DNA of 64,000 nt from Arabidopsis thaliana (taxonomy: Eukaryota; Streptophyta; Magnoliopsida; Brassicales; Brassicaceae), in the NCBI RefSeq assembly GCF_000001735.4, contig NC_003074.8:13330101-13394100 (forward strand), in the 5' to 3' direction. The notes below the pieces were generated by a model. That model was given only the letters and a program-made list of their open reading frames with translations. It ran no database searches and had not been told where the DNA came from. The translations under genes and the position numbers were made by a program. Each line of letters starts with the position of its first letter. Position 1 is the stretch's first letter. This document shows positions 3,192 through 63,433 of the stretch, piece by piece.

Positions 3192-3339
3192 GAGATTTGC
3201 AAAACTGCCCTTATTCTAATAACCTTTTGCAAAAATGCCCTTTCCTAAAGGCCATTTTTAAAACTACTATTTCTAATGTGGCAAATGACGGTCTTACCCT
3301 TACTGAATAATTAGGTTTCACATTCATTTTGACAAACTT

Positions 3340-3515
3340 CTTCGTTTTGGCCGACGATTTTTTCTCTCCGATAAAACTCAAAATCGCCGACAAATTTTTC
3401 TCTCCGAGAAACCTCAAAATCGCCGACGAATTGTTTTCTCCGAGAAATCTCAAAATCGCCGACGAATTGTTCTCTCCGAGAAACCTCAAATTCGCCGACG
3501 AATAGATCTCTCCGA
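3340..3515. repeat. 36-bp subterminal tandem repeats, left end of element 1
   Basis: Four to five units of about 36 bp built on 'cgccgacgaattgttctctc' followed by a 'cgagaaacctcaaaat' part. They lie inside the left terminus and just upstream of the first gene, where MULE ends often hold promoter and transposase-binding repeats. A 92-codon open frame on the opposite strand is only the translation of the repeat. Confidence 0.8.
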
Positions 3516-4024
3516 TAAACCTGTTCTTCGCTGACGGATTCAGATCATTTCTCTACGACGCAAACAATCCCTAGAGATATTGATAGATCCGACGGTAACC
3601 GTTTTATAATCGATTTTATAGTCGATTTTATAGTAAATCTGATGATTTTTCATTACATGTTTTGCAAATGGATTCAGAGAGTGAAATCCTTACATTGCCT
3701 GAACAGATCTACAGAGAAGGTGAGGAATCTATTGCACTGGAAACCGTTCAACAATACTCGAATTGGAATTTAGTTAGTAAAGTAGAAGAAGCTTTAGGCG
3801 AGTGTTTATTTCAGAAGATTAGAAGTTCGTTTCTTGGTCCTCTAGTTGAATTGGGACCACAAAATGAAGGCTAAGAAGGGAATCAGATTTTCTGGGAAAA
3901 TCTTTCACTATCTCATGCAGCAGAGAGTGAAAACAAAAGGATCAACTCTTTGGTTTAGAGTTGATTCTCAACCTATCCGTTTCTCCTTGAGAGAGTTCTA
4001 CCTCACAACAGGTAAAAAAGTTTT

Positions 4025-4760
4025 ACAATCGTTTTTAAAGCTTAATTAACTGCCGTAGAATGATTTACAAGGCATTTGCAAAACTGTTTGCATAGTTTAC
4101 AATCGTTTTTAAAGCATAAGTAAGTGTCATAGATAATTTACAAGGGATTTTAAAAGCTTTTGAAAGGGGTTTACTTGATTAACAATCGTTTAAGAAGCAT
4201 AAGTTAGTGGCAGATAATGATTTACAAGGGATTTTAAAAAGGGTATGCATGGTTTACAACCGTTTTTAGGCATAAGTAAGTAGCATAGAATAATTTACAA
4301 GAGATTTTAAAAGCTTAAAGAAGTGTTAAACACGTTTACAAGGGATTTTAAAAGCATAAGTAAGTGTCATAAAACGATTTACAAGAGATTTTAGAAGTGT
4401 TTGCATGGTTTACAATCGTTTTTAAAACATAAGTAAGTGGCATAGAATATTTTACAAGGGATTTTAAAACCTTTTCTAAGGGTTAAACATGATTTACAAT
4501 CGTTTTTTTAAGCATAAGTAAGTGGAATAGAATAATTTACAAGGGATTTTAAAAGCTTTTAGAAGGGTTAAACATGATTTACAATCGTTTTTAAAGCATA
4601 AGTAAGTGTCATAGAATGATTTACAAGGGATTTTAAAAGTGTTTGCATGATTTACAATCGTTTTTAAAGCATAAGTAAGTGGCATTGAATGATTTATAAG
4701 GGATTTTAAAAGCTTTTTAAAGTGTTAAACATGATTTACAATCGTTTTTGAAGTATTTAC
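4025..4760. repeat. Tandem array of element 1 motif in intron 1
   Basis: Eight to ten degenerate units of about 85-95 bp fill the first intron of the DUF1985/Ulp1 gene. Each unit has a 'tttacaagggattttaaaa' half and a 'tttacaatcgtttttaaag' half, joined by 'cataagtaagtggcatag'. The halves fit one consensus, TTTACAANNGNTTTTAAA. The same motif recurs singly or in clusters in most other introns of the element. Confidence 0.9.
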
Positions 4761-7149
4761 TATAAAACCTGTACTAATAGTCTCTACACTGTCTTTTGTT
4801 CTTACATGAATTCAATGTGAACCTGTTCATAGGGAACTTCGACGAAAGGGGAAAGAACCTGTAAAAGAACCATACTTTTGGGCTCGTGAAGGATTCTATA
4901 CTCTTGGTGATCTCGAAGATCGATTGTTTTTAAAACCTAAGGAAGGTGAACTTGCTGTTGAAGATGAAGAAAAGTTGTGTCTTGCTCGAGTAGTGTTGAC
5001 TGAAGGAATTCTTTTCACACCATATGTAAAAGAGAGGATACCTTTGCCAAGATTGCAGCATGCTTCTGATTTTGAGATGTACACAGCCCAACCGTGGGGT
5101 AAAGAAGCATTCAGTGTTCTATCAAATTCAATTCTGAGAATGTACGAGAAAACTTGGGCAAACGAGAAATATGATCTGAGAGGATTTGGACTCGCGCTAA
5201 CGATATGGGTGTTGAGCGCAGTTCCAGCATTTGGTGCAGCATATGGAGTTAGAGATAAGGAATTTCAATCTGAATATCCATTGATAATGAAGTGGGAAAG
5301 CACTACTACTCCAGAGTTTTTCAAGGTCGTAAACCTTGTAAATGATGTTTCCGAAGTAAGCTTTTGTCTATTTACAGAATTCTTAAAATGGTTTTGAGAT
5401 TTGAAGTTCTGCTTTCTCAAGATTTGTAATGTTATTGTATCTTCGCAGATAGAGGTGAATACAATTATTGGAAACCCAGAAGAATTCAAGTCTTTAGTTC
5501 CTGATTTCCACACAGACGACACAGAATTCCAACAGATTTTGGAACTTGTTAAGATGGGCTACAGATTGAAGAAAACTGAATGGAATACAAGATGCGTTGA
5601 TGTTTGTCCTGCCCTTGAAGAAGTAGGTCAAAACAAAATCAATAACAAAATATCTGATAGCGAGAAGCTTGACAGGATTTTGACAATCCTTGAAGATCTT
5701 AACAAGAGAGTCGAGCTGATTGAGAGGATTTTGGACATTAGAATGGAGGAAAAGAATAATCAGAGATCTGAGGAAGATGAAAAAAGAAAACAAGAAGATG
5801 AAGGACTAGAAAGACAACCAGAGGTAATTGTAAATGTTTCTTTAAAAGCTATTTGAAAGGAAAGGTTTTACAATATATTTTAAAGGTTAAATACGTAGTA
5901 AACCTTTAAAATGTACTCTTTCTTTTCGCAGGCTGAAGAAGAAGGAGGACCAGAAAGAAAAGCCGAGGTAATTGACAATCTTAACAAGCTATTTTAAAGG
6001 TCTGCTAATTATATTAATGATTGACTTATTATTTTTATTTTGTTGCAGAATGACAATGAATCATTTGAAGATTCAATCCGAGAGCCAATTACACAGTATG
6101 GGAGCTATCCGGGTGATGATAAAAACACCCAACGTGATGTTGGTGATGAAGTAGCTGAAGAATCATCAAAAGTACAGTAATCTTATATCTCTAAAAGTCT
6201 TACAAAAATGATTAGTATGCTTTTTATAATTTTACATTCTGTTATCTTTTCAAGGATAAGTCTCCTACTCCACAATCCTCTACACCAAATTTCAATATTT
6301 TGTCTGAAGAAAGTCTGGATGTTCAAAAGGATAAGAAGAGAGTTAGCAGAGAAAGAAATGATGTTAGCATTTAAAAAAAATTGTATTATCTAACCAAGTG
6401 TTTATAATGTTTTTTTCAAATCTTTAAAAAGTTTATCTTTCATGCAACTTCAGAACAAGAGAGTTAAACCAAGCGTTCATGCTGAGGATAATCTTAAAAC
6501 AAGAAAACAGGTTAGTATTTGCAACGGTACTGTTTTTAAAATTTGTCAATTGTCTTGTTATGATATTTACAAGGGATTTTAAAAGTACTTTTAATTGGTG
6601 TTTTTTACTATTCTAGGTGCCGAGAAAGAGGCAGAAACAAGTTGATAGTGTTGATGTTGATGTTCCAACAAGGAAAGAGGTTAATATCTAATTTATTATG
6701 ATTTTGAAAATTTTGTTTACAAGGTATTTTAAACATCTGTTTTTTTTATTCTTTTTGATAGGCACAGAGTAAGAAAAGGAAAATTATTGGCAATGATGGT
6801 GATAACGCTGATAATGATGGCGACAATGATGATTTTCATCCTGCTCGCAAAGAAAGAGTAAGCGGGGTACGGTTCCTTCCATTCATACACAAGCACCTTT
6901 CACAGCTGAGAAGAAGAAGCATCCAATTTTGCATCCATTTTCGAAAGTTGATGCCACAAGACTTGAGAAATTGGCTGAATGGAAGAAGTCAAGGAAAAAC
7001 AAGTGAGTTTTTTTAAAAATAAAACATTCATTGTTGACTGTTTTGTTGTTGTAGGCCACTATCAATCGCGGGAAATATTATAGATACAAAGTGGTTTACA
7101 ACCCTAGAGACGCCAGGGAAAGCAATAACAACAACGGTATGTCTAAAAA

Positions 7150-7500
7150 TCCTTGTAAAATTGGTAACCCATGATTTAAATATAATTTTTAAAGCATCAT
7201 TAAGTTATTTACAAGGGATTTTAAAAAGGGTTACATGGTTTATAAACAATTTTAAAAGATTAGAATGTGGTAAAGAATGATTTACAAGGTATTTTAAAAA
7301 GGATTTACATGACTTGCAATCGTTTTTAACGGATTAGAAAGTGGTAAGGATTGATTTACAAGGGATTTTAAAAAGCTATTAAAAAGGGTTTAATTGATTA
7401 ACAATTGTTTTAGAAGCAGAACTTAGTGGCATAGAATGATTTACAAGGTATTTTAAAAAGGGTTTGCATTTTTTACAATCGTTTTTAAAGGGGTTTTCTA
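7150..7500. repeat. Second array of element 1 motif (intron)
   Basis: Four to five copies of TTTACAANNGNTTTTAAA in the intron just before the Ulp1-like exons, with the same joining sequence as the 4.0-4.8 kb array. Spacing between neighbouring motifs is again about 40-50 bp. Confidence 0.85.
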
Positions 7501-8479
7501 ATATGATAATTTTTATTTTTGTTGTGTTTAGAATGTTGATGCAGCTTTGGAGTTGATGAAAACGAGGAAGGAAAGCAATCCAGAATTATTCAAAAACAAA
7601 TCAGTTGTATTTGTTGGCTCGTCTTTCTTAAATACGATTGATGAGTCATACATGGAGTTTTTGGATGACAAAGAGGGATTTCAGTTTCAGTCTGAAGAAA
7701 TCAGTAAGCTTATAATAGAGGAAGAAAACAAGTGCATATTGGCTCCTTTCTGTATCAAAGGAAAATGCTGGGTTGCCTTGCTAATCCACTTGGAACAAAA
7801 GACAGTTTTTATATGGGAATGTGCAGCTTCTTATTTAACAGAAGAAGTCAAGAAAAAATATGTTGCTGCCTACTCTATAGCTATGCCATACATTGTTCGG
7901 AACATCCTCAAAAAAGAAGACATGGATTTCTCTCCATTTAGCATCAAAGTCCTGACCACTTTTCCTTAGGTAACTTCTTTAAATATATCATAGTCTTAGA
8001 AATGAATATTCCGTAAGTCCTGACTTCTTTAACTTCTTTGCTTAAGTAATTCTTTTGGTTTTTGGTTGTAGGCTCCTAGAAATGAAGAGTCTGGTATCTA
8101 TATGCTGAAGTTTATGGAATGCTACTCAATGTATACCAGCCATTCAAACCTTGAAGGGAACATAATTCAAAACGTAAGGAATAAATTGGCTGCTGACATC
8201 TTCACCGAATTAAAGTCAGTTACTTTGTAGAAGTAGCAGACTTCTAATCAGAAAGTAGTGGAGTATAAGATAGATTTATCAGCTTTTGTTTCTTATTTCA
8301 TAAAACTTTGTCATTTGAATATTTTATGAACATTTGCATGGAACAAAATTTATGAAGTTTATTTAGTTCAACTCCTATTTAACAAAATTACTGTATAATG
8401 GTTGTTTGGGTTAACATGTGCTTTGATTTGAATGGAAAAAGACTTTAAACATGCTTTTAAACAGTTTTTTTTTTTACGA

Positions 8480-8930
8480 TTTACAAGCTGTTTTAAAAGG
8501 ATTTTAAAAATGTTGAAAAAGCTGCAGTAGCGGTTATTATGAAAAGATTTACAACCGTTTTTAAAATGATTTATAACCGTTTTTAAAAGAGAATTTCAAC
8601 CGTTTCAAAAGAAATTTACAATCGTTTTAAAAACCATTTTAAAAGTGTTGAAAAAGCTGTAGTAGCTGCTAGTATGAAAAGATTTACAACCGTTTTTAAA
8701 ATGATTTACAACCATTTTAAAGAGATTTACAACCGTTTATGATTTGAATGGAAAAGACTTTAAAATAACAGGGTTTTTTTAACGATTTACAAGCTGTTTT
8801 AAAAGCGTTTTAAAAGTGTTGAAAAAGGTGCAGTAGCTGTTATTATGAAAAGATTTACAACCGTTTTTAAAATGATTTACAACCGTTTTTAAAAAAGAAT
8901 TTCAACCGTTGAAAAAGTTGCAGTAATGTT
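8480..8930. repeat. Intergenic array of element 1 motif with ~300-bp duplication
   Basis: A block with 'gatttacaaccgtttttaaa' pairs and 'gttgaaaaagctgcagtagc' is present in two to three diverged copies (about 8485-8640, 8640-8760 and 8770-8930). It separates the 3' end of the first DUF1985 gene from the second, so it covers the promoter region of the second gene. Confidence 0.85.
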
Positions 8931-9917
8931 AAATATTGTATCTATTACTAATTGGGCCTAGGCCTGTTATTTAGAAAAACAAACTATTTTAGTAAAAAAA
9001 ACACTAAAAGCCCAAAAAACACTAAAGCCCAAAAATTCACTATAACCCAAAAACAAAAAAGGAAGGGAACCGTGAAAAGACAAAAAAAGTAACAAAAAAA
9101 AAAAAGAGAAACTGTTGTCTTCGTCTTCTTCCTTTCAACAATCTAAAGAAAATCCGATTATCCAGCAAAAAGGAAGCAATTAAAGGTAACAAAATTTACG
9201 AAACTGAAGTTTAACATTTGGGTTTGTTCGATTTTGTTTATTTTTGCCGAATCTCTTTTTTGTTCTAGCATTTCTAGGGTTTTCGGTTGAAAACGAAACA
9301 AGTAAAATAGATTGATATTTGGGATTTTGAAGGAGTGTTAGAATTTTTTTTACAATTTTGATAGATTTATGTTTTAATGTTTGATATTGGGGTTTCAAAA
9401 ACCTTCAAAGAAGATTTCGAATGCCGATTAACTTCTCTGTTGTAGCAATTTCAAAGGTTTTTCGTTTTGAAACTACACCAGTAAATAGATTGATGTTTGG
9501 GTTTGTGTTTGAATTTATAGATCCTCACTTAATTTATGGGTTACCAGTTGATTGGAGTTGGTTTGAAAAAGTTTTTTTTTGTTTCTATTTTTGGAGGCTG
9601 TGTTCTTTGAAAAGGATTAAAATTTTGTTTTTGGAATGGTTTCAAAACGGTCTTTAAAAAGGATTATGGAGTAATGACTGTGTTTTACAAGGGTTTTTAA
9701 AGTCTTAAAACGACTTGTAATGACTTTTGAAAAATGGTTTTACAAGGGTTTTTAAAGTCTTTTAAACGACTTGTATTGACTATGTTTATGTTTCGAAAAC
9801 TACAAATGCATAATAGATTTACAAAATGGTTTTTAAAACGATATTCAAAACTGTGTTAATTTAATGACTGTGTTAATTTAATGACTGTGTTAATGTATTT
9901 AATCAGGTTTTGAGAAA

Positions 9918-11817
9918 ATGAGTACAAAGAAACTGTACTTCCCTAAAAGACTGTTCCAACCAGGCAGCGAAGTAGATAATATTACAAGGGTATCAAAGCA
10001 TTCATCCTTCAAAATTGTCTTGACTGTCAGGGAAGCTTTAGAGCCGATAGAGTTCAACACATTAATGGACACATTCTTGGGTCCTATAGTGGAATTTGCT
10101 GAAATGGACTTAGCATTTTCAAGCCATATCGTTCATCATTTACTCAAGAGAAGGATACTAACCAACAATGACGAATTGTGGTTTGTATTTGCTGATCAAC
10201 CTATGCGATTGTCCCTGAGAGAGTTTATCATAACAACATGACTTCCAATGGATGATGCATCTGGAAGCAGTCCAAATGTGAAGAGAAAGAAGAAAGAAAA
10301 GTGGTGGATAAAAGATAATACGACTTTGAAGGGAAAGCAGAAAAAAGAGTGTGGATTGACAAGGAAATGAGTTTTATCGATCTTACATATGTTTTGGAAA
10401 AGCGTTCCAAAAAAATGCAGCCTGAGGAGAGACTGAGATTGGCTGGTTTGTTACTAGTGGAGGGCCTATTGCTAGCTCGAAATCCGACTACCAGGCTGCC
10501 AATTGAGAATCTGGAGAGAGCTATTGATTTCGAAAAGTTCTGTAAGTATTCATGGCGCAGATTGTTTACTCATATTTGGTAACTGAAGTGAAGAGAATCG
10601 ATAATGACTATTTCTTAAGGAAACAATATGGTCTATTTGGATTTGTTCAATCAATTCAAATATGGGCATTATCATCGGTTCAGAAGTTGGGAGAAAAGTT
10701 TGGCACTAGAGATGAATCATGTAGTGGAAATATTTCATTAATTCTCCAATGGAGATCAACATCGTCTCCAAGTGCAAAAACTATAACAATGTTTACAGAT
10801 GGTGACAAGGTACATTTTCTTAGCTGTGGCTTTTTTATGTTTTAAACACTGTTTATAAATAAAGAGTATGTTTTATAATAGTTTTTACAATCAAGTTTTA
10901 AGGATTTACAAAGGGTTAAAGGCAATTTAAACAATTTACAACGGATTTTAAAAAGTTAATTAAGAATTGTGCATTATTTTTACACAGTTTGGAATTTTGT
11001 TTATCTTTGCAGGTTGAAGTGACACCAATAGTTGGTGTTCATACTCATGAATATGACCACTTGGTTTCATAGAAGAATCCTGAAGACAAGGATCTGTTGG
11101 ATGTTTTTGATCTTGTGATCAAAGGAGATAGAATGAGCAAGAAAGATTGGTGTCAGGGATGGATTCAAGTGGAACAAGGACATCAAGGAAGAATTGATCA
11201 TGTCTTGAAACCTGCAATTGAAACAGTTGTGCATCAAAGCAGAAAAAGGAAAACAATGTCCTTTGGTGAGAAGGTAAAACTGGTATATGAAAACTGTGAA
11301 GTTCTTAAGAAGAAAGTTGGAAGGCTGGAGGGCTATTTAGGGATCGAAAGAGTTTCTGCCAGTTATACTAGAGAAGTACAAAAAGAAGAGGACGAAAAAA
11401 AGGAGGAGGAAGAAGAAAAGCAAGAGGAAGAAGAAAAAGAAGAGGAAGAAGAAAAGGTATGTGTTTTTACAAGGGATTTTAAAAGCTTATAAATCGTGTT
11501 TTAAAGATTTTTAGCCGTTTTTAAAAGATAGACAGTATTAGATACATATTTACAAGGGATTTTAAAGACTTTAAAATGGGGTTTTAAAGATTTAAAGTCG
11601 TTTTTAAAGGATAGGCAATGTTCGATAAGTATTTACAAGGGATTTTAAAAAGTTTTTAAAAGTGATTTACATGAGTAACTTGTAGTTATATAACTTGTAA
11701 TTTTATATACAGGTTGAATACAGAGGCGATGAAGAAACAGAAAAACAAGAAATCCCCAAACAAGGCGATGAAGAAATGGAAGGGGAAGAAGGAAAAGTAG
11801 AGGAAGAAGTTAAATAA
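9918..11817 (+). pseudogene. Second DUF1985 gene, no Ulp1 domain, broken
   Basis: ATG 9918 opens a DUF1985 protein parallel to the upstream gene (LRLSLREFIITT-like block; later [16 protein letters not shown]). Exons: 9918-10809, 11013-11456 and 11713-11817. The C-terminal part is a basic stretch followed by a long glutamate/lysine run and ends at TAA 11815-11817, with no protease domain. Breaks: TGA at 10239-10241 where the family has Gly, a frame change between about 10,300 and 10,350, another near 10,555, and TAG near 11,070. The 9.0-9.9 kb region is its 5' flank and leader, with further motif copies near 9690-9770. It could be a truncated paralogue of the first gene or a distinct subunit gene; its partner role is unknown. 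Confidence 0.7.
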
Positions 11818-12770
11818 GAGGTAGAAGAAAAGGTATGTGTTTTTACAAGGGATTTTAAAAGCTTATAAATCGTGTTTTAAAGATTTTTAGCCGTTTTTAA
11901 AAGATCGGCAGTGTTAGATATGTATTTACAAGGGATTTTAAAGACTTCTTAATGGGGTTTTAAAGATTTAAAGTCGTTAATAATGATTTTACAAGAATTT
12001 TTAAAAGGGCTTTAAAAACGTTAATAATGATTTTACAATGATTTTTAAAACGATTAGTACCTGAGCAGTAGGGTCAGAATGAGAAACAAAAGGATTTGAA
12101 GTAGTCTCAGCCTGTAATAAGCACAATCACTGACTTAATAATGATTTTACAAGGATTTTTAAAATTATAACACAAGAAGGTTATTGAAAAACCTGCTCAA
12201 CTGTCACAGAAATTTGCTCTACAGTCAAGCATAACTGAAGCAATCGTTTTATAAGCATAGAATAATTTAAAAGGGATTTTAAAAGCTTTGAAAACTGGTT
12301 AACATGGTTTACAAATCGTTTTAAAGCGTAAGTAAGTGGCATAGAATAATTTACAAGGGATTTTAAAAGCTTTGAAAAGTGGTTAACATGGTTTACAAAT
12401 CGTTTTAAAGCGTAAGTAAGTGGCATAGAATTATTTACAAGAGATTTTAAAAGCTTTGAAAAGTGGTTAACATGGTTTACAAATTGTGTTAAAGCGTAAG
12501 TAAGTGGCATAGAATTATTTACAAGGGATTTTAAAAGCTTTGAAAAGTGGTTAACATGGTTTCAAATCGTTTTAAAGCGTAAGTAAGTGGCATAGAATTA
12601 TTTACAGGGGATTTTAAAAGCTTTAAAAAGTGGTTAACATGGTTTACAAATCGTTTTAAAGCGTAAGTAAGTGGCAAAGAATAATTTACAAGGGATTTTA
12701 AAAGCTTTGAAAAGTGGTTAACATGGTTTACAAATCGTTTTAAAGCGTAAGTAAGTGACATAGATCTATC
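11457..12770. repeat. 3' motif arrays of element 1
   Basis: Introns and 3' flank of the second DUF1985 gene carry two near-identical blocks (about 11,457-11,640 and 11,833-11,990), beginning with the splice-donor sequence of the glutamate-rich exon. An array of about six units of 78-80 bp follows (12,250-12,765), of the form 'tttacaagggattttaaaag' then 'catggtttacaaatcgtttt'. Two open frames on the minus strand (12,181-12,510 and 12,531-12,761) are only the translated repeat. Confidence 0.9.
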
Positions 12771-13089
12771 ACGAAAAGCATATGTAAAGAGGTAAACACT
12801 AAATCAGAACCAAAATCTATCACGAAACAGTATAACGAATTCACATAAGCAAATCTATCACGAAACAGTATAATGAGTTCAAAAGGTATTAACGAATTTA
12901 CAAGGATTTTAGAAACAAATTCAATCATCAAATCTCAAACAAAATTCAAATTCGAAGCTGAAGCAAATGTCAAACTGTCGATTGAATCAGGATTCAAATA
13001 ACGAATTCACATAAGCAACAACAAAAATCGAATAAACCAATTCGAAATCTGACATTTAAGCTAACATTACAAATTCAAACCTGGGAAAC

Positions 13090-13360
13090 ACAAGAGATTC
13101 AACGGCGACACACTTCACTACTTCCGACGGCGACACACTTCACTACTTCCGACGACGAAAATGGGATTCAACGGCGAGAAACTTCACAATTTCCGATGGA
13201 GGAATAACAGAAAGAGATTCGACGGCGACAAACTTCACTATTTCCGACGGCGAAGATGGGATTCGATGGCGACAAACTTCACTATTTCCGACGGCATGGG
13301 ATTCAACGGCGACAAACTGCACAATTTCCGATGGAGGAAGAAGAGAGAGAAAGAAAATGA
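13090..13360. repeat. Subterminal tandem repeats, right end of element 1
   Basis: Five to six units of about 40-48 bp of the form 'gggattcaacggcgacaaac' followed by 'ttcactatttccgacgg'. They mirror the GC-richer repeats at the left end (both include 'cgacg' and 'ttc' rich cores), as expected of paired MULE subterminal regions. Confidence 0.8.
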
Positions 13361-13490
13361 ATTAGGTCAGAAGTGTGTTTAGCTCAGTAAGGGTAATTTG
13401 GGGATAAAAGTATTAGAAAGGGTATAAATGAAAATGGGAAAAAAGGTAGAGTTGAAAAAGAACATTGAAAAAAGGGCATTAGAGTGAATT

Positions 13491-13680
13491 ATTCTTATTT
13501 ATGTGACTAAAATCTCAAATTGTTTATGTTTATGAATTTTATTTTGTTTCGAAAATAGAGGAAGTGTTTTGTTTTCTTTGTCAACCAAATTCAGATTGAA
13601 ATATAAACAGATGCTCTGTTCGGCATTTATTCTAAAGAAATTTTCACAGAAGTGGACGAAAAAAGATTTGCTCTCACCGT
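13491..13680. other. Spacer between two MULEs
   Basis: About 190 bp of AT-rich sequence between the right end of element 1 and the left terminus of element 2. Nothing is recognised in it; the true boundaries of either element could lie within it. Confidence 0.5.
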
Positions 13681-13720
13681 TTGTCAAAGTGAGAACTGGT
13701 TTTCACGTTTTGTCTTTTCA
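13681..13720 (+). repeat. Left terminal inverted repeat, element 2
   Basis: Matches the complement of 26,278-26,317 over about 40 bp, with the landmarks TTGTCAAAGT, TGGTTTTCAC and TTTGTCTTTTC in the same order and nearly the same spacing. Identity is about 75-80% by eye. Confidence 0.65.
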
Positions 13721-14139
13721 TTCAATTTCGGACCAAATTACCCTGGGAAAACTTAATAATGGCACAAACCAAACCGTGCAGCAGTTCGTATCGGTTAAGT
13801 TGACGGCATAAACCAAACCCTACAGCAGTTGGTTTCGGTTTAGTTGATGCGTTTTGAAAAAGACAAAAAAAAAAAAAAAACTGAAACGAAGAAACCCGAG
13901 AAAACGAAAAAGAGAAGAGAGTAACGGAGAGATTTGAGAGAGAATCAGAAAGCGAAACGAAATTCAGTATCCCTTGCTTCAAAATTCGACATAACTTCGA
14001 ATTGTTGGGTAGTTGAATTGAGCCACTGAACTCCCACATCCGGGGAAGTGAAAGTTACTGTTTTTCCCGGCGAAGCCAAGAGAAAGTTATTGTTTATTCC
14101 GGCGAAATTTGAACCTCCGGCGAGATAGCATCTTTAGAT

Positions 14140-17100
14140 ATGGCTGGGAATAAAGCTAACGACGAAGTCCCGAGGAAGCAGCATGGTCAAGGGAAGGAGA
14201 AGCGGGTATTAAGAGTTTCCCCGCAGAGAAAACGCTCTGCGACAAAGGCAACGGAGGAACTGGCTTAGAATCTCTAATTTACCGTTTGTTGTCTTTGGGT
14301 GTATCAGAATTGTAAAGCTTGTTTGATTAAAGGGTTAGAATTTGTCGGAATTTAGCATATCTTTAGGATGAATAATTGAGAAGTAGAATTGGAAATCTCT
14401 GTTTCCGCCAAAAATATGATTTTGAGTTATAATCTGGAAAATGTCTGTGTACGTACACTACTTCGGTTTGCTTAATAGTATATGACTTTTAATTGCAGGT
14501 AGTCCAAGTGTTGCTCCGACTGAAGATCTTACAGTTGAAGAGTTACCACCAAGACTCTTTGCTCTAGACCGGTACCCTTCCGAGACGAAGATGAACGCGT
14601 ACTCTAAACCGGAGTACAATTCTGACATAGCAAATGTACTAAAGGGGAAACCAGAGATGCAGTTTCTTCTAGATTCTCCATTTGGGGAACTTTTTAAAAT
14701 ACCCAAAAACAAGGCATCTTTCAATGCTAAGCTTGTCCTTGGACTAATATGCCGTCAGTTAGTGACAAAGAAGGTGAACGAGATGTGGATTGTATTCGGC
14801 GGTCATCCAATCAGATTTGGATTAAGAGAATTTAGTATCCTAACTGGGCTGGAATGTGGGAAGTATCTCAAGAAGAAAGACGTTGATGATGTTATCAGTG
14901 TGAAACCTGAGTGTGAGAGTGTTTGGAAGACTCTGTTTGATAAGAGGTTTGGGGACACGGTTCCAACAATTGCTGATTTGGTGAGCTGGCTGCAGGAGGA
15001 GGAAAGCATGGAGGGGTGGAAGCAACTGGCACTATCTCTTATTATTTTGGTTGACGGTGTGGTAGCGGCCCACAGTAACCCCAACAGGCCTACTTCGAAG
15101 ACTGTCGAGATGACTAAGAACCTGGAGTTCTTCTGCAAATACCCATGGGGAAGGGTGTCCTTTACCCGTACTTTGGGGAGGATAGCAAATTTCCAAACTC
15201 CTTACGATGCTCAACAACTAATAAGGGGTTTACTTGTAGGGTCTTATGCAATCCATGGCTTCCCATTAGCTCTCCAGCTTTTAGCTTTCGAAACAATCCC
15301 ATCAATTGCTAAGCTAGGACCTGATGATGTACCTAACAGGACATTTGCTGAGAGGTCTATCCATCGTCTTGCCTCTCTGCGAGCAATCCGGACATCTCGC
15401 ATTTTGGAGTGTGAGGCTGCTGATGAGGTGTGTTAAATTGTGTATGTACGTACATAATAAGTAAATGTACATTATCTATGGTTAACATACTTATTTGTGT
15501 ACGTTGAGGTCAACTATATTGTGAAACCAGCTGATAATGTTTGTCCTCCATCTCTTTCATGGGATGATGAAGTTGATGATCCAAGGGTTGATTACATTGA
15601 GGCACTGTTGATAGATGGGCACCAGTGGCAGGAGGATGAATGGGTTGGAGGCTATGCTAGAGTACCAAAGCAGTTGCGCCCACCACAACTAGAAGAGACA
15701 GGTAAGTATAAGTATAAAGGTTGTTTACAAAATTTTTTGGTATTGCACCCAGAAGAAAACCAATTAATAGCAGCAACTGGTCTATTGTAGATGTTAAGAG
15801 GAAACGAAATGCACCGGGCCCGAGCCCTAAAGAACCTGCTATGAAAAAACAGAAATCTAAAATGGACTGTGATAAAGAAGAGAATGCTGAGGATTGTTTT
15901 GGAGAGCCTGTGCCTGAGAGGTTTATTGTTGAAATGAGGAGGTCTTTCAAGGAGCTGGAAGACCAAATGTATCAAATGCATGAAGATATGAAAGACTTTG
16001 TCCGTGACCAGATACGTGCTGCCCTTGATCCAAAAGGCAAAAGGCCAGAACAAACCATACCTTCCCATGATTCGCGGGAACCACCTACTTCTATGGATAA
16101 GGCACCGGTTACTACGAAGAAGCCATCGAGAAGGATGTCTACAAAAGGAAGCACTGGAACGAGAAAGTCTTCAAGGCTGACTCGTGTATCTCATGATGTG
16201 GACACTCCTGCACTTTCTGTTGGCTGTAATTCCAAAGAGGAAGATTTGGATGTCCCTGGAGTACATACCACTGCTGTCGGCGGAAGAAGAAAACCTTCAA
16301 AGCCGAAGAAAAATGTTTCTTTTGCTGTTGACACTACTGAGCTACCTGATTCCAATAAGGAAGATATGCAAGGATTCATTGATGAACAGGTAAGTCATGT
16401 ACGTACATTGCTAAATATTTTATAATCCATATGTATAACTGTACTGTCTGCTTCGATACAGTATGGCGCTAATAATGAAAGTGATTTTACTGCAAATGAT
16501 GGATTGGATTCTTCGGCCGCTGAAGAAGAGATATTAGACACTGGATTTTTAATAGTTCCTTATGCTGGATCCACACAATCCCATCTGGTATGTCGTCTAC
16601 TAATACTCTTAACAATCTGTTTAAATGGTGTACGTACATATTCGCTTAAGAAGTTAGTTAAACTATGTTTCAGGATAGAGGAAATATTGTTGTTGGTAAG
16701 AGTGTCTTCTTAGGTTCAATGTCTGGGACTGTCTATGTTACATAGGAAGAGAGGCCTGTGGAAGAAGCTACTGTTGACACCGAGATGGAAGAAGTTCCAT
16801 CTAATGTGTCTGCAAGAGTTTCAGATGTAGATCTTCTGGTAATCGTTATATACAGATTTCCATGACTATATTCATATATATTACATTAATTTCTCCACTT
16901 ATCTAACGCTTAACTCTATGGTAGCCTATGTTTCAGGATAATGGACCAAAGGATGTTGCTGAACCTGGCTTAGTTGGTACCCATACAGGGGCCGATGAAA
17001 TAGCTGATGCTGACATAGAGATGGTAGACAATCCATCAGGTTTACCTTCAACATCTGCATAGGTATGTGTTAGTCACTTGTTCTTTTTCCATATGTGTAC

Positions 17101-18566
17101 GCCCATAAGACTTTGCAAATTATTTTTGTTTCAGGAAGAAGCAAGAGATGCCAGTGCATCGACTGAAGCTAATGGCAGCGAGTCAGAAGAAACTTATGAG
17201 CCTTCTGATGGAGATACAGCTCACGTACCTGGCACAAGTGTACGTACATTTTTGTCACTATGTTCTGTGTACATATATATTGTTTCATACATTACTAAAA
17301 AATTTCTTTCCGATGATAAATTCTACAGGTTGAGGCGGCAGGAGAATCCAAATTAGTGACAGGGATGGAAGTTGAAATACCTGAGAAGACCCACAGTGAT
17401 CCCCCCTCACCATTTCAAGTAGTTAACAATGTAAGCTAACTCTTGCAACAAATAAAATGTACTATTTACTGTTCAAATGTATAAAATTTATATTATGCAG
17501 GTCATACGGGAGTTAGATACCAAAGCCGTTGGTGATTTGGCTGCAGCTACTAATGTGGAGGTAACAATTTGTGTGTTTCAATTCCTATTTTCGGAATAGC
17601 ATGCATAGGATTATATGTGTACATTATATAGACTTGTGTACGTTAACTTGCACAGGTAGTCATGGAAGAGCCGGGTATTGTCGAGGGGTCTGTAGGAACT
17701 GAGGATCCTAACCCAGGGTCAGATGAAGCAGACAAGACCGATATTCCTAAAAATAATGTATGTACCTATTTTAAACATAGAAAAACGTATGAAACTGTTG
17801 TTGACAATCATATTTGTTAACAGGATGAATCAGACAATGCTGCTGTTGTCGAAGCAAAAGAAGAAAAAAAATCGATTATTTTTTAAGGCAACTTGTTTAT
17901 GAACAGGATGATGCCCATCCTCATGGTTTTAAGGCAAAAACAGTCTTGGTGCCTGATGTACCAACTCAACAGATAGAGGTTGTTATCAGGGCTGGAAATG
18001 TCTCATACAACCCCCTGGACATGGTTGACCCTTCAAAAGTAGAGGAATTCAGCAATATCATTAAAGGACCCTCTGTGTAAGTACATTATATTAAAATGGA
18101 TTATTTAATATCTCAATCATCATTTTTCCAAGTCTTAAGGTTGTTATCAAATATTTTTCTGGATTTACAGGATTCACACTCTTTTCGGGTTTCGCAAAGT
18201 GCCCAACGAGTTTTTTGCGAACCTTCTAACACCTGGTGAATGGGTCGAAAGTTCGGTACGTTGCATTTATATACGTACATTCCTTGTTAGAAATTGTACA
18301 TAGATGATTAAATTTTTCGTGGAAGTGTACGTACACTGATATATATTTTTTGAACATTTCAGCATTTAGAAATGATGGCAATGTTGATGTGGCACAAGAA
18401 CGGGGAACAGATGATAGCAAACAGATGTATTGTATTGGACATGATGCTGACGCATCTACTTACCAAGCGGGTGGGCGACTTCAAGAAGTGTATTAATAAG
18501 AACGGGTTCAAATGGATATTAAAATCTAAGCGTCCACAACTACGTACACGTGCATCTACCAAATAA
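14140..18566 (+). pseudogene. DUF1985 gene with truncated Ulp1-like domain
   Basis: About 16 exons. ATG 14140 opens a short basic first exon. The large second exon (14,499-15,427) encodes DUF1985 (WIVFGGHPIRFGLREFSILTG and PWGRVSFTRTLGRI). Later exons: 15,509-15,701, 15,791-16,389 (basic, coiled-coil-like), 16,462-16,587, 16,674-16,695, 16,746-16,838, 16,937-17,062, 17,135-17,239, 17,329-17,430, 17,501-17,560, 17,656-17,757, 17,824 on, about 17,909-18,078, 18,171-18,255 and 18,363-18,566. The last exons match only the start of a Ulp1-like domain (LLTPGEWVESS, then LEMMAMLMWHKNG); the His, Asp and Cys parts are absent. TAG at 17,060-17,062 ends one exon, TAA follows 17,880, and the exon 1 donor is unclear. 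Introns hold many GTACGTACA motifs. Confidence 0.7.
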
Positions 18567-18599
18567 TACTTAAAGGTTTTTAGTTTGTCTCGGAAAACT

Positions 18600-18890
18600 A
18601 GATATGGACGTACACTAGCATGAGATATCAACTCTAACGTACACTAAAAAATAACACATGCAAACATATGAGGTCTTTGGTTTGTCTCATAAATGGTGAT
18701 ATTTATGAATGGACGTACACTGATAGTACACTACAGCGTACACTGTTTGTTGGGTAAATGTAGAAATGTAAATGTGGACGTACACTAAAACGTACACTAC
18801 AACGTACACTGTTTGTTGGGCAAATGTAGAAATGTAAATGTGGACGTACACTAAAACGCACACTAAAACGTACACGTCTAGTTTTAAGCT
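18600..18890. repeat. 66-bp tandem repeats rich in CGTACACT
   Basis: Two full units and a partial one of about 66 bp: 'gtttgttgggcaaatgtaga', then 'aatgtaaatgtggacgtaca', then a series of 'cgtacacta' copies. The array sits directly downstream of the DUF1985 gene and upstream of the F-box-like genes, and is the densest cluster of the element 2 motif. Confidence 0.85.
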
Positions 18891-19087
18891 GTTATTAAAA
18901 AGAGGTTGCTCATAACAACAATAACAAATTATATATGGAATACTATTACGTTGATTTGACAATATGAATACACAACATCACTTAATACCTTTGCAATAAA
19001 TACAACCATAACTTACCCAACCATATCTTCAATGATGCTTATTTAAGTGTTGGAATTTCATTTTGTTGAAACACCTTACTCCTAAAT

Positions 19088-19780
19088 ATGACAAACCCAA
19101 ATATTCCTGATGATTTGCTTGCGAAGATAGCCAAGAAAATGGCTGACAAATGTTGGTGGTACCTCGGACCTATGTTGAAATCCGGTCCTCGTGGAAGAGA
19201 CATTGTCTACCGTCCGGATGTCCTCAAAGATGCAAACATTTTCAGCATGTGCGACGATCCCGATGACTTCTACGCGGCAGGCCACGATCCTAATGACATC
19301 AACTCCGAAGGTCGCTATAGACCCTTCTTCAAACGGTGCTTACAAGCTGGTAACCCCACGGCTATTTACCATGAAGGACTGCGTCTCGTTACACATGAGT
19401 CTGACATTCAGGGAGCTATCCTACACTTAGAGCGAATAGCCCCAAGGAACGCCGCTGCAACCCTTGCATGCGCAATTCTTTACATATGTGCTGGTAATGC
19501 TCACATGGGTGGTGTCTACCTTTGGCTCTTCGGAAGCAACCATTATGCTTTGGAATTGGAGGAGGCACGTGACATTTGTGAGGAGGTGCTAGAAGATATA
19601 AAGAAATATGGTAATACTTTAAAATACACATACGCTAACAGTTTTTCGTACCCGGAATGTGGTGACGTAAGCACTCCTGAGTGCGCGGAGATGTGTTACA
19701 TGAGATCGAGACTCTTCAATAATCTTTGCAACCAATGTTACATCTGGTTGTGTGCTAAACGGATTAGCCAGATCCTGTAG
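19088..19780 (+). CDS. F-box-like / Sel1-like protein (At2g35280-type, tentative)
   Basis: Intact single-exon frame of 230 codons, ATG 19088 to TAG 19780. The N-terminus (residues 3-50) is F-box-like: IPDDLLAKIAKKMADK, then a PMLKSG block. The middle (about 80-150) is an alpha-helical, Sel1/TPR-like stretch containing 'FFKRCLQAGNPTAIYHEGLR' and an Ala-rich helix. The C-terminus has several Cys (CGDVSTPECAEMCY, CNQCY). This order resembles the Arabidopsis F-box family around At2g35280, whose members would bind SKP1 in ubiquitin ligases; that match is from memory. It has a related neighbour at 20.6 kb. It lies between the two ends of a VANDAL-like element and so is either cargo or an element gene. 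Function in the element is unknown. Confidence 0.6.
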   Translation: MTNPNIPDDLLAKIAKKMADKCWWYLGPMLKSGPRGRDIVYRPDVLKDANIFSMCDDPDDFYAAGHDPNDINSEGRYRPFFKRCLQAGNPTAIYHEGLRLVTHESDIQGAILHLERIAPRNAAATLACAILYICAGNAHMGGVYLWLFGSNHYALELEEARDICEEVLEDIKKYGNTLKYTYANSFSYPECGDVSTPECAEMCYMRSRLFNNLCNQCYIWLCAKRISQIL

Positions 19781-20583
19781 AGCTCACATTCGCCACGATC
19801 CTGTCATATTTATAAGCTTTCCATGCAACAATATGTGAGCTTTTTACGTTGATTATCAGTAATGGAAGTTTGTTTTTAATAATTACCACTTTGTAATTGA
19901 TTCAAACATACTAGCTCAAACTACTCTAATATGAGACATCATTAACACAAAATAATAATAAAATAATAAAATATCTACGTACACGATATATGATAATGTA
20001 CACGTGGCATAGTTTAATTCCAACTATAAAAATTACATACTGAGCGACGATATAGTTTGTAAATGAAGACGAAAGGAAATTTGATTTGACGTCGTATAAC
20101 CCATATCTAGAAGATTTCGCTCCATATTAATTACTCGCTGTCAAATACACTCTAGAAGTGACCTCCATCACACTCTCATTAATATCTCTATTAGACGTAC
20201 ACGGTTCCCGAGCAACGTACTCAATTGATTTGGCAGATAAAATAAGTAAGTTAATGTTTATTTGAAAAGATTGTTAGTAAATGCGTTGACCCCTAATATA
20301 GCACTATACATGAAGCCATATTGTTCCACTTATATGCAATACAAACAGACGTCAACTCAATCTTCTGTCAGAAAACGTAATGAGTATTTTATAGACGTAC
20401 ACGGCGCGATTATGAGAGGTACACAGTAGTTTGTTTAAATTAAAAGTTACTAATATGATGCACTAAATATACATCCACGTCACCCACCCACTTACATTGA
20501 TGATTATTCTCCTCTTTAAAACTCATGTCAAACACACTTAGTTGAATACACGAATCCGTCTAAACCTCCTCGTTTGAAAAACA
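19781..20583. other. Intergenic, with motif copies
   Basis: AT-rich spacer between two related F-box-like genes. It holds several partial GTACAC/CGTACAC motifs (about 19,977-20,005, 20,195-20,218 and 20,395-20,425) and the probable promoter of the downstream gene. No further gene seen. Confidence 0.5.
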
Positions 20584-21102
20584 ATGCCTTTCCTACCTCC
20601 GCTAACCCCTCCAAACGAGTTGTACCTAGGAATCCAATTGCCAAACCCCATAAGCATACTTGTCAACTACCTCCCCGTCAGCCAGACTCCCATAGAGACG
20701 CTAAGGAACTTAGTCTACAGTTGTGACATCAACACCCTTGCAATCGATGAATTCATGACGTGGCCGTCGTTACTCCAACCGGAGTCTACCTTCCAGCCAT
20801 ACTTCGAGCTGCTTGTAGAACGTGGATCCATCCCGGCGGTTTACCTTGAAGGTGTTCGCCAAGCGAGCAACTTCGTGACAGTAGCTCAGGGCCTTTCAGT
20901 CATGACAACGGTCGCTTTATCTGATCCCTTTGCTTGCTTCGCAACCGGTTTGTTCCTTACGTGTACCGGTAATCACTTGGATTTCCTCCCGATCAGCGAA
21001 AAGTTCTGGGAAATGACACCCACCCTTGAAGCTGGCCACGCGGTTGCAGAGATGGTGATGTATCACATCAGCCAGCTTCACACTGAAAATGCTTGCCGCT
21101 AG
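20584..21102 (+). CDS. Second F-box-like / Sel1-like protein, possibly shortened
   Basis: 172 codons, ATG 20584 to TAG 21100-21102. It is related to the gene at 19,088. The block 'YFELLVERGSIPAVYLEGVR' (about residues 80-99) parallels 'FFKRCLQAGNPTAIYHEGLR', followed by the same kind of Ala-rich helix with FATGLFLTCTGN against LACAILYICAGN. The N-terminus is proline-rich and lacks an obvious F-box. Reading on past the TAG in the same frame gives about 35 more codons with a Cys/His-rich pattern like the family C-terminus, so the stop may be a nonsense change. Function unknown. Confidence 0.55.
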   Translation: MPFLPPLTPPNELYLGIQLPNPISILVNYLPVSQTPIETLRNLVYSCDINTLAIDEFMTWPSLLQPESTFQPYFELLVERGSIPAVYLEGVRQASNFVTVAQGLSVMTTVALSDPFACFATGLFLTCTGNHLDFLPISEKFWEMTPTLEAGHAVAEMVMYHISQLHTENACR

Positions 21103-21807
21103 GAAAGGTCTTGGAGGTTTGTCCACCCGCCGAGTTGCGTAGGGCAATGCACGTTCCATCATGGCTGCAGGGTTTGTTTTTTCTACTGTTACGCCAGGGA
21201 GATTGCTATATTCTACTAGAAGCAAAGCTGCTAAGGTCTAAGCTACTCTACTCGGCTCTACTCTCAAGTCTTTTGGTATGACGGATGCACACATATTTTG
21301 CAACACATGTGCATGTTTCGTTGAAAAAATTATGTTTTTTGAATCGTTCCAGTTTATTTATCTTATGAATTTCCCTTTATGTAAACTGCCTGTCCTTTTT
21401 ATGTTTCTGGCTTTTGAATGAATTACCACTTTAAGTATTACTAGATGTCTTCGTGTACGTACACTATATAGTACATTAAACTTGGTTTATCGTACATTGG
21501 GAAATTGCGTACACAACATAAGTATAAATCTAATAGTTTTTGATGTTGAAGGCACCAAAACTAATATACGTACACGATAGCGTACACCAGAAACTATACG
21601 TACACTGCGAGAGGATTTGAACAATAAAACAAGGCACGTACATAAAACAAAAAATTAGGTTAACATTTAAACGGAAACAGGAAACACCAACGACTGAAAT
21701 GTAGTTTGGTTCTTATGGAAACAACAATAACAACTGGGAAAGAAAACTTAATTGAAATGTAGTCTTATATTATATTAAAACGGAGAATAATGGTTCATTC
21801 CCTCTAG
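21103..21807. other. Intergenic between convergent genes
   Basis: Three-prime region shared by the plus-strand F-box-like gene and the minus-strand RPA-like gene. It contains several motif copies (GTGTACGTACAC near 21,455; TACGTACAC near 21,570 and 21,595). No gene seen. Confidence 0.5.
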
Positions 21808-22566
21808 CTAAAAAACCACCATCGAGATATCCGCAACTTCTGGTCTGTCCGGATTGGCAACCACCTTTGAAATAGCACCATGGCTCTCAAGCTTCGGGTT
21901 AACCAGTTCGGTTAGACGCCAAAAGCTGAGTGCGACAACAAAATTTCCCTTACCCAAACTCTGAAAGTAACCATCCAAGTACTCCGCCTGTTGATTGCGG
22001 GCTTCGCAATCCAAGACTTCATTGCTACGTTAGAAATAAGGACAGTTAGCCTTTAGAGTGACATTGTAAATAAAACAAATGAAAAGACAGTTACTATCTA
22101 TCTTTTATCTTGAAACTCAGTTTGAGACCGTAATAGTCTGTAGTCAATGCGCCAACATCAACCAACGCTCCAACGACATCTAGATGATGGAGAAACAAAG
22201 ATAATAAACAAAAAATTCAAAAATGTAATAAATGAAGCATCGGAGTTATTCTTCCTCACCGACTAAAACGTTCTTGTAAGCAGATTTCTCCAAAATGTAG
22301 TCGAAGGGAGTGAAATCGAAATCTGGAACTGGTGGTGATCTCGGTGGGGCCTTAACGACGAAGGTCCGATCCATAAACAGTATGCCGTATTCATGCTTTG
22401 TTGCTCTGACTGAGTCAGTTGACTTACGAACCAAGAAAGAGGTGATTGTCTTCCACTCATTTTCAACGAATCGGTCTTCGTAAAACGGAGCAAGGCGATG
22501 ATCAATTCTGAGGACACAATTCTGAGACCATATGAAACCCCTCCATCTCACGGATAGCAAGAACAA
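21808..22566 (-). CDS. RPA-like OB-fold (DUF223) protein
   Basis: Start ATG 22566; exons about 22,566-22,253, 22,180-22,108 and 22,027-21,808 (stop TAG). The first exon has an OB-fold strand pattern (ENEWKTITSFLVRKSTDSV, HEYGILFMDRTFV). The second begins VVGALVDVGALTTDYYGLKL, typical of the second OB fold of plant RPA70-like/DUF223 proteins. The third has SLGKGNFVVALSFWRL and ends shortly after. At about 200 residues it covers only part of an RPA70 large subunit. RPA-like proteins bind single-stranded DNA, and in plants copies are carried by Helitrons and other elements. The donor of exon 2 reads as AGATAG and is not clearly canonical, so the gene may be damaged. Confidence 0.6.
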
Positions 22567-26277: not shown

Positions 26278-26317
26278 CGAAAAGACAAATGGTGAAAACC
26301 ACATTTGACTTTGACAA
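26278..26317 (-). repeat. Right terminal inverted repeat, element 2
   Basis: Complement of the left terminus at 13,681-13,720. The block 'gacaaatggtgaaaacc' then 'actttgacaa' mirrors the left 'ttgtcaaagt' and 'tggttttcac'. The 660 bp between it and the transposase start hold the presumed promoter and two more partial motif copies (near 26,190 and 26,220). Confidence 0.65.
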
Positions 26318-54220: not shown

Positions 54221-54227
54221 TTAATTT

Positions 54228-55520: not shown

Positions 55521-55529
55521 CCGAGAGTG

Positions 55530-58340: not shown

Positions 58341-58344
58341 TTAG

Positions 58345-58490: not shown

Positions 58491-58559
58491 TGAGGAAAAA
58501 AACAAACAGAAGCAGACAATTGGTTTTTGTTTTTGTTGAATGTCAAACATAGAAAACTG

Positions 58560-59500: not shown

Positions 59501-59559
59501 GGTTTATATTACAAAAAGATTGTAGACTCGCATTCCAACACTAAGCAGAAACATGAGAT

Positions 59560-61708: not shown

Positions 61709-61859
61709 CATTATGTGTATTGACACGAATCATACAGAGCTTTTTTCATTGCTATCATATTTACGTCTTTTTTTGTATACCCATTGTGCCCCTACTAAAC
61801 ATTATAAGAAAAACGTAATTACAAGGAATGCCACTACCACGTCAGAAATCGCTGACGTG

Positions 61860-62310
61860 GATTAATTAACTCAGCCGTATGGCGATACAACGGCCGTTAC
61901 AGTATGTTGCGGTTGACTTATGACAAAAATATTTGAGTCATGAGAGAACGGGGGAATTATGAGTATAACTTAGCCTACATTACGGCTGATTTCAAATCTT
62001 TGCCTGAGTTATACGATAATCCAGCCTACATGACGGCTGAGTTAAGGTATTTTGTCTGAGTTATAAGAATATCGAGCATAACCCAAACAACGTTATAGCT
62101 GAGTTATTAGAAAACGACAGACTTATTTCCTTGACACGCCTGAGTTATCTTTGTCCTGCTGGCTGGGTTATGAATGACGGCATAGTTATGGGATGTTGTT
62201 ACAGCTGAGTTATGATCGAGTGTTATAAATCAGCCGTAAAGAGCTGGTTATCGAATAACTCAGCCTACCCGGATTTGAGTCAAGTGATTCAAGCCGTAAT
62301 CATCGAGCAC
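61860..62310. repeat. Dispersed CTGAGTTA / CAGCCGTA motif cluster
   Basis: At least ten copies in both orientations: AACTCAGCCGTA (61,868), CCTACATTACGGCTGA (61,975), CCTACATGACGGCTGAGTTA (62,016), and others near 62,100, 62,205, 62,232, 62,258 and 62,292. More lie in the transposase intron (63,141-63,250). Confidence 0.8.
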
Positions 62311-62333
62311 CAACTTCAAAAGCCTGTCGTGCG

Positions 62334-63433
62334 TTGTTTCCGCTTCTAGCAGCACAACTCTACACCCTCTTCCGTTGGGCATATCTGGGTACAGTCACAC
62401 GTCTTCAAATTGATGAGAGTGGAAGATTCAACTATCTATTCATTGCTTTTGGTGCCAGTATCGATGGGTTTCCTTTCTTGTGCAAAGTTATTGTTGTTGA
62501 AGGTACGTTTCTCTATGGTAGTTACAAAGGGACGCTTCTAACATCCCTAGCTCAAGATGGTAATTTTCAGATTTTTCCGTTAGCTCTCGGTGTAGTTGAC
62601 ACTGAAAATGATGAATCTTGGCGTTGGTTTTTTACGCAACTCAAAGTTGTTAATCCTGACGCAATGGATCTGATGATAATCTCGGACAGACATAAGTCAA
62701 CAGCGAAAGCAATTGATGAAGTGTATCCGTTGGCTTCTCATGGAATTTGCACTTACCATTTGTATAAGAACATTTTGGTAAAATTCAAAGGAAAACAAAT
62801 GTTCCCTCTGGTGAAAAAAGCGGCAAGGTGTTTTAGGCTGACTGATTTTAATGACGCGTTCAGTGAGATTGATGAGTGTGATCCTAACCTACATGGATAC
62901 CTCCAAAGAGCGGGTGTTAAAATGTGGGTGGGTGTTCATTTCCCCGATGATAGGTATAGTTTAGTGACTACGTATATAGCGGAATCAATGAACAAAGCAC
63001 TGTCAAATGCCAGAAATCTTTCCATAGTTCGACTGTTAGAAGCGATACGGACAATGATGATAAGATGGTTTGCTGAACGGAGAGAGGATGCGAGCACGCA
63101 ACAAACTCAGCTCACATGTGGTGTTGAAAAACGGATAAATGTAACTCAGCTGTAACTGTGTACATAAGTCAGTCGTAGGATGCTCATAAACCAGACATTA
63201 TTAGCCTAACTCAACCATAACGTATTTGTTTTTTTATTCTTCTCTCTAATAGGCCCATGTCACCGCGTCAAGACTTATGGATGTACAAACGATTGATGCT
63301 TTCTGCGTACAAGTAACTTATGGAACATCTTTGCATGTTGTAAATGTGGATGCAAAACCATGCACATGCCGTCGTTTCGACAAAGAGAAATTACCATGCA
63401 TCCATGCAAACGCAACTGCAGAATGGGTGTGTC
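62334..63433 (+). pseudogene. MuDR-type transposase, catalytic Asp changed
   Basis: The exon ending at 63,140 covers the DDE region (IDESGRFNYLFIAFGAS; DTENDESWRWFF; MIISDRHKS; HGICTYHLYKN; ESMNKALSNARNL); the exon 63,253-63,433 holds the SWIM zinc finger (CTCRRFDKEKLPCIH). The family's first catalytic Asp lies in a Val-Asp-Gly-Thr-Phe motif; here it reads VEGTF (Glu, codon GAA 62,499-62,501). The N-terminal DNA-binding region and start are missing; the first in-frame ATG at 62,334 is arbitrary. Very like a vanA transposase, different from the one in element 2. Presumably inactive. Confidence 0.75.

Follow-up and report, generated by a model that had tools for sequence, protein, structure and literature searches.

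Three stretches of the chromosome 3 pericentromere of Arabidopsis thaliana, named here E1, E2 and E3, very probably represent three VANDAL-type MULE families in which each short, family-specific motif is the clustered site of the family's own DUF1985 (VANC) anti-silencing protein, binding and demethylation being argued from VANC21 and VANC6. The observations behind this reading were the motifs, their placement, strand, spacing and family restriction, and their co-segregation with DUF1985 clades. The data supported the confinement of each motif to one transposon lineage and one DUF1985 (VANC-type) clade. The analysed stretch of DNA (the window) was 64,000 bp long and covered positions 13,330,101-13,394,100 of a 23,459,830-base contig, in a genome of 119.66 Mb and 7 contigs.

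Structure and gene content of the elements

The first element, E1, carried the following features:

3190..13494, + strand: E1, internally deleted VANDAL-type MULE, with the 9-bp direct repeat TTATTTATG at 3181-3189 and 13495-13503
3689..5853, + strand: VANC-like gene 1, with DUF1985 exons at 3689-4013 (frame broken), 4816-5355 and 5449-5853
4022..4753, + strand: densest motif-1 array, with 31/42/84-bp spacings, in the intron splitting the DUF1985 domain of gene 1
6566..12702, + strand: other dispersed motif-1 sites, all on the + strand
7532..7990, + strand: Ulp1/C48 protease exon (Pfam Peptidase_C48, 5.4e-26)
9918..11372, + strand: VANC-like gene 2, DUF1985 then further exons, frame broken (tblastn with frame changes)

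The left end of E1 was confirmed by a chromosome 1 copy (11.887-11.902 Mb), with which homology began exactly at 3190. No copy confirmed the right end, and TTATTTATG was one of two 9-mers common to both searched flanks. The main aligned blocks showed 91-95% identity to the chromosome 1 copy and the first 611 bases 80%. Approximately 4.4 kb of that copy, encoding an opposite-strand MULE transposase and a J exon, was absent from E1 at about position 11978, and a Mutator-like transposase was found for E1 only through this relative (Pfam MULE 2.3e-11), whose protein had 96-99% identity to A. thaliana entries. Two DUF1985 genes were present in both E1 and the chromosome 1 copy, with gene 1 adjoining the Ulp1 exon. 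In the window both were broken in frame and scored below the Pfam cut-off: gene 1, traced by tblastn with proteins of the chromosome 1 copy, at 2.4e-6, and gene 2 at 0.0013 versus 6.1e-19 in the intact chromosome 1 copy. E1 may correspond to VANDAL3 and E2 to VANDAL2 or a near relative, both assignments being leads only.

The second element, E2, lay directly beside E1:

13635..26364, + strand: E2, VANDAL-type MULE, with the 9-bp TSD TTTATTCTA at 13626-13634 and 26365-26373
13681-13719 and 26279-26317: inverted arms of E2, 85%
14447..26197, no strand assigned: motif 2, ACGTACAY, often as the palindrome GTACGTAC, at 36 places across E2
14486..15433, + strand: VANC exon with DUF1985, an open frame of 316 codons (Pfam DUF1985, 5.3e-35)
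23095..25631, - strand: MULE transposase broken over three frames (DBD_Tnp_Mut 8.1e-5, just under the cut-off)

The left end of E2 was matched within 2 bp by four of the five copies compared, and transposase frames of 994 codons were present in some related copies.

The third element was a remnant:

61790..63488, + strand: E3, rearranged remnant with motif 3, left limit approximate and without clear ends
62377..63155, + strand: transposase fragment of E3 with a MULE domain (Pfam MULE, 1.3e-20)

The E3 remnant itself yielded no DUF1985, and the assignment of a VANC gene to E3 came through its family relatives, which do have the domain. An earlier note on this DNA had described three systems side by side and had recognised no VANC gene in the window. 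E1 and E2 were indeed neighbours, but the E3 remnant lay 35 kb away, and the second statement was overturned by the strong DUF1985 exon of E2 and by the two decayed DUF1985 genes and the Ulp1 exon of E1.

Distribution of the motifs

Motif 1 (TTTACAANNGNTTTTAAA) had 32 exact copies in the window, all on the + strand, all between 4.0 and 12.7 kb and all in E1, compared with a mean of 0.003 in order-1 resampled sequence. The whole genome contained 930+781 matches versus 1+5 for the reversed pattern. A relaxed form of the motif gave 36 forward and no reverse sites in E1, and the restriction to a single strand held for 36/36 and 39/39 sites. None of the 36 sites fell in the coding DNA of E1, where 10.7 were expected (circular-shift P=0.006).

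Motif 2 produced 45 strand-hits (the 36 places), all of them confined to E2 within the window; resampled E2 gave 0.79, and all 10 GTACGTAC palindromes were inside E2. The orientation was mixed and the motif palindromic. With long ORFs as proxies for the coding parts of E2, 6 of the 36 sites were in long ORFs compared with 17.4 expected (circular-shift P=0.005). Genome-wide, TGTACGTACAY gave 429/421 hits versus 235/239 for the reversed control, and motif 2 is therefore less private as a bare word, since this excess was only about 1.8-fold.

For motif 3, the shared core CTGAGTTA had 9 sites at 61.8-63.2 kb and the alternative core GCTGAGTTA, also written (G)GCTGAGTTA, had 6 sites in the same interval, both with none elsewhere in the window. 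Genome-wide, GGCTGAGTTA gave 434/432 hits versus 48/50 for its control. An intact relative of E3 on chromosome 5 contained 49 sites in 14 kb with a strand ratio of 43:6, and its motif core was usually preceded by G and G/A. The exons of this relative encoded, in a row, DUF1985, coiled-coil-like, basic and Ulp1-like segments, and with exon limits drawn by eye from ORFs, only 1 of the 49 sites was coding compared with 19.3 expected (circular-shift P=0.003). The sites were clustered upstream and in four inter-exon gaps (2053-2307, 3077-3356, 4323-4508 and 11495-11579, in joined-stretch coordinates), and a cluster was absent from the gap at about 12463-12623. An E3-family protein of the At2g24930 type (P0032) combined DUF1985 (8.4e-15) and C48 (2e-64) in one chain.

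The view put forward in the earlier note, of a private motif in each element, held within the window: motif 1 occurred only in E1, motif 2 only in E2 and motif 3 only in E3. Its wording of the motifs was right for E1 and, better as ACGTACAY, for E2, but the 13-mer named for E3 occurred once. Likewise, E3 with its 9 sites was not saturated as had been described, a term that fits the intact chromosome 5 relative. Avoidance of exons was borne out for all three motifs (P 0.003-0.006).

Near a MULE at 51-53 kb, CACTCGACC was considered as a fourth private motif and rejected, as it had 1805+1803 genome hits and was not element-bound; among the matches listed, all were on chromosome 1, mostly in its pericentromere.

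Spacing of the motifs

Same-strand neighbour spacings of motif 1 clustered at multiples of approximately 10.3-10.4 bp in E1, in the chromosome 1 copy and in the small chromosome 1 elements listed, with spacings near 21/31/42/63/84 bp. At a period of 10.5 bp, the phasing of motif 1 reached R=0.88 in E1, 0.74 in the chromosome 1 copy and 0.85 in the small chromosome 1 elements listed, compared with R=0.53 for motif 3. The phasing of motif 2 was not significant (R=0.37, P=0.11, n=16); at 10.5 bp the sites of VANC21 were likewise not phased (n=5-6). Because the jitter null keeps the shared ancestry of tandem units, counting each spacing once gives the fairer figure. For motif 1 this was about 0.66-0.86, with 0.83 in E1, 0.66 in the chromosome 1 copy and 0.75 in the small chromosome 1 elements, whereas motif 3 reached 0.31 and motif 2 0.23. 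The lack of helical phasing for motif 2 and for the VANC21 control, like the 1.8-fold bare-word excess of motif 2, counts against the motifs being VANC sites. A study by Sasaki et al. in EMBO J in 2022 is said to describe at least ten VANC systems, their motif density and helical periodicity.

Motifs and DUF1985 clades

We compared 48 stretches with DUF1985 from the A. thaliana genome, each about 3.4 kb long: the 30 best-scoring loci, 10 chosen loci of E1/E3 type, 3 VANCs that are either published or probable, and 5 E1/E2/E3-type copies or windows. The 10 E1/E3-type loci were picked by type and thus measure consistency within clades, not discovery. Motif 1 was present in 8/8 stretches of its clade (10-17 sites), two of which were the window's own E1 genes, and in 0/40 of the others. 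Motif 3 was present in 6/6 stretches of its clade (12-22 sites) with at most 2 sites in the other 42, and motif 2 in 7/7 stretches of its group (4-9 sites) with at most 1 site in the other 41.

In a later tree of 47 DUF1985 domains, support was 0.99 for the E1 gene-2 clade and 1.0 for the E3-type clade, and the 10 chosen loci fell in these two clades. The E1 and E3 types grouped together with a support of 0.94 in the first tree and 0.92 in the 47-domain tree. VANC21 grouped with VANC6 in the first tree (support 1.0). The DUF1985 of E2 was sister to that of a locus which, by its TE numbering, is presumably VANC1 (support 0.98-0.99; 56% identity), and ACGTACAY occurred 10 times at this locus.

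As published-motif controls, YAGTATTAY occurred 11 times at L042 and AGTTGTMC 6 times at L043, each versus 0-2 times in the other compared stretches. We take these loci to be those of VANC21 and VANC6 from the gene positions, a placement supported by the published motifs that both carry. At a majority of the 30 top-scoring DUF1985 loci, inspection by eye found no word clearly enriched within 1.5 kb, so the domain by itself is no proof of a motif system. The lineage-specific recognition systems proposed in the earlier note gained support in that each motif went with one lineage and one DUF1985 clade, and the VANC21 and VANC6 pairs behaved alike; the part naming the reader was less firmly placed, as association fits either VANC or transposase.

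Alternative explanations

The motifs could instead be internal or subterminal sites of each family's MULE transposase (vanA), which is improbable. Motif 3 did follow a transposase subclade, with 9-14 sites in four relatives at 71-76% identity to the E3 transposase, 2 sites in a partial relative and none in four others at 54-63%, and because vanA and VANC travel in the same elements, association by clade fits either as the reader. However, the sites were in introns throughout the element and not just near the ends, related E1 copies keep VANC beside the arrays, and both published cases of such a layout in the covered part of PMC5735166 are VANC sites.

That the arrays are by-products of tandem duplication and copy homogenisation, formed without recognition by a protein, is very unlikely: although tandem repeats held part of the motif 1 sites and part of the motif 2 sites, many sites were dispersed singly in different introns and avoided exons, and motif 1 kept one strand and its regular spacings even when each spacing was counted once. 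It is scarcely credible that the motifs are sites of host transcription factors serving as promoters or enhancers of the elements. A short palindrome such as motif 2 may be a common form for host-factor sites, yet the motifs were private to lineages, different in each family, and located in introns and intergenic DNA over 10-14 kb. Recognition by the family's own VANC protein is accordingly the preferred reading.

Comparison with known systems

E2 resembled the VANC1 system in that its DUF1985 was sister to the probable VANC1 locus, itself ACGTACAY-bearing. In the part of PMC10398659 covered, VANC1 targets VANDAL1, 2, 22, 1N1 and 2N1. For VANC21 and VANC6, the covered text of PMC5735166 describes the same layout of motif-dense non-coding DNA together with demonstrated binding to the motif. 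The present elements were similar to VANDAL21 (Hiun) with VANC21 and the motif YAGTATTAY in combining a MULE, a DUF1985 gene and a dense, family-private non-coding motif, which for motif 1 was also on the same strand and in tandem-repeat organisation (PMC5735166, as covered), but they had other motifs, and the E1/E3-type DUF1985 was about 18-26% identical to VANC21. The organisation was also that of VANDAL6 and VANC6, with the motif AGTTGTCC/AGTTGTAC (same portion of PMC5735166), but with a different motif and in a different clade.

KIU genes are, in the covered portion of a review (PMC13317346), VANC genes that have acquired an Ulp1 domain by capture. The E3-family VANC was like KIU in joining DUF1985 and Ulp1 (P0032), although E3 in the window did not have the combination itself. 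E1 came near to it with an Ulp1 exon beside VANC-like gene 1, for which one joint transcript is a candidate only. In the E1 family the second VANC-like protein differed, with a terminal J domain instead. Short interrupted repeat cassettes (SIRC) of A. thaliana, according to the covered part of PMC10342631, are short direct repeats with diverse spacers that also occur within a VANDAL3 copy and were proposed to be MITE-derived. The present repeats were likewise short and direct with diverse spacers, but belonged to VANDAL-type elements and went with VANC clades.

Overall, family-specific VANDAL/VANC systems are of a known kind (Hosaka 2017). The matches listed for the motif letters in print contained no mention of VANDAL. 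Neither the motif-protein pairs of the E1 and E3 families nor a VANC with a J domain appeared in the portions of the literature covered.

A J domain in the E1 family

Among annotated A. thaliana proteins, two of the E1 family, P0001 and P0002 (At2g14140), consisted of DUF1985, acidic tandem repeats (DUF1299) and a C-terminal auxilin-type J domain with HPD, where a single transcript from DUF1985 to J rests on gene predictions; P0008 (At2g02200) had the same tail. Pfam called no J domain in these proteins, and the assignment was based on matches to solved J domains, namely 3ag7, a structure deposited as uncharacterised F9E10.5 (1.1e-14), and four chains of auxilin, each below 1e-6. The J exon was found at 13 genome places with 90-100% identity, 9 of them without stops, and was absent from E1 in the window. 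Seven further, more distant matches at 33-42% are probably host genes. DUF1985 was listed upstream on the same strand at 9/13 places and a transposase downstream on the opposite strand at 11/13. HPDK was present in 11 of the 13 copies (L071 among them), with L076 reading HRDK and L075 giving no match. There was no clear purifying selection on the J-exon copies, because pN/pS was 0.63 in the J exon (10 HPDK copies) versus 1.16 in the upstream exon (9 copies). Predicted structures were too weak for a reading of the fold (pLDDT 35 for P0001 and 51 for the E2 VANC).

No DUF1985-J fusion from outside A. thaliana was found in the protein database (3 fusion proteins among 74 candidates), and some Brassica relatives had Agenet domains in place of J (P0011). 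A VANC with a J domain was not met in the literature covered, nor a VANDAL21 counterpart of it; in the portions covered, PMC5821449 and PMC11963502 mention DUF1985 and DnaJ once or twice, and the review PMC13317346 has no J-domain term.

Among host J proteins, the sources as covered describe DNAJ1/DNAJ2 acting with SUVH1/SUVH3 to promote expression (anti-silencing) and SILENZIO acting with MBD5/MBD6 in repression, and the VANC J domain may act on silencing in the manner of such proteins. A tentative and rather doubtful proposal casts the E1 family's second VANC-like protein as a J-domain co-chaperone guided by the motif, with HSP70 stripping or remodelling silencing complexes at the phased motif arrays, imitating DNAJ1/DNAJ2 or competing with SILENZIO. 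If true, the DNA-reading front would be common to different VANC clades, and the effector tail would be exchangeable between them (J domain, Ulp1 and, in Brassica, Agenet).

Proposed mechanism and significance

Under the VANC reading, the DUF1985 protein of each family would bind the motif-dense DNA of its own family, where the motif fills introns, intergenic stretches and element ends, and hypomethylation would then spread over the motif-bearing element. In VANDAL21 with VANA and VANB deleted, VANC acts on motif-bearing copies without transposase, and the removal of methylation by VANC after binding is a stated open question (both in the covered part of PMC5735166). E2 is an element with its VANC exon still open but its transposase broken. 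E1, with its transposase lost and its VANC frames broken, is expected to be acted on passively by intact relatives, and E3 is a relic of a family that encodes a DUF1985-Ulp1 VANC.

A VANC with its own J domain would offer a direct candidate for the effector step that can be mutated. The three families, each with a clean motif/protein pair of its own, would lend themselves to natural swap experiments, and with the clade-by-motif table it may become possible to tell from the sequence alone which VANC belongs to a non-autonomous element.

Additional genes of the E1 and E2 families

An auxilin-type J-domain exon was found in the E1 transposon family, namely in the chromosome 1 copy of E1 (L039/L040) and at 12 other places in the genome, and is apparently the C-terminus of the second VANC-like protein of this family. 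The exon was absent from the E1 of the window itself. Separately, Agenet domains were fused to DUF1985 in P0011 and other Brassica proteins. Weak matches to the plant mobile domain (PMD), below the cut-off, overlapped the E1-type DUF1985.

Two further ORFs were present in E2:
19070-19777, TPR_27-like ORF (domain match slightly below the cut-off)
22249-22728, minus strand, DUF223 ORF

The TPR_27-like ORF was found at 13 genome places with at least 89% identity, that of E2 included, and at further places with 53-60%. Several of these places adjoined E2-type and VANC1-type elements. The ORF appears to be a cargo gene stably maintained in the E2 lineage.

Other mobile-element regions and repeated words

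Outside E1 and E2, the following features were identified:
49953-50184, ACTCGACC repeats adjoining another MULE
51.1-53.4 kb, minus strand, this other MULE, with a SWIM finger
59938-60279, minus strand, separate Ulp1/C48 fragment adjoining the E3 remnant (E-value 2.1e-11)

The Ulp1/C48 fragment had a nucleotide match to none of the eight E3-type loci compared. The region of approximately 31.7-43.6 kb holds what we take, by eye from the ORF list, to be two Ty1/copia-like polyprotein regions in opposite orientations, and in the ORF list the region on the minus strand contains a segment that is repeated (33823-34479 and 34480-35217).

Among the matches listed in a genome search, the ACTCGACC word was frequent in the chromosome 1 pericentromere. 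At L033 and L029, other DUF1985 loci of the same genome, the strongly repeated words within 3.4 kb were GAATCCTC (13 times) and GTGTACTA (8 times), which may be further private motifs.
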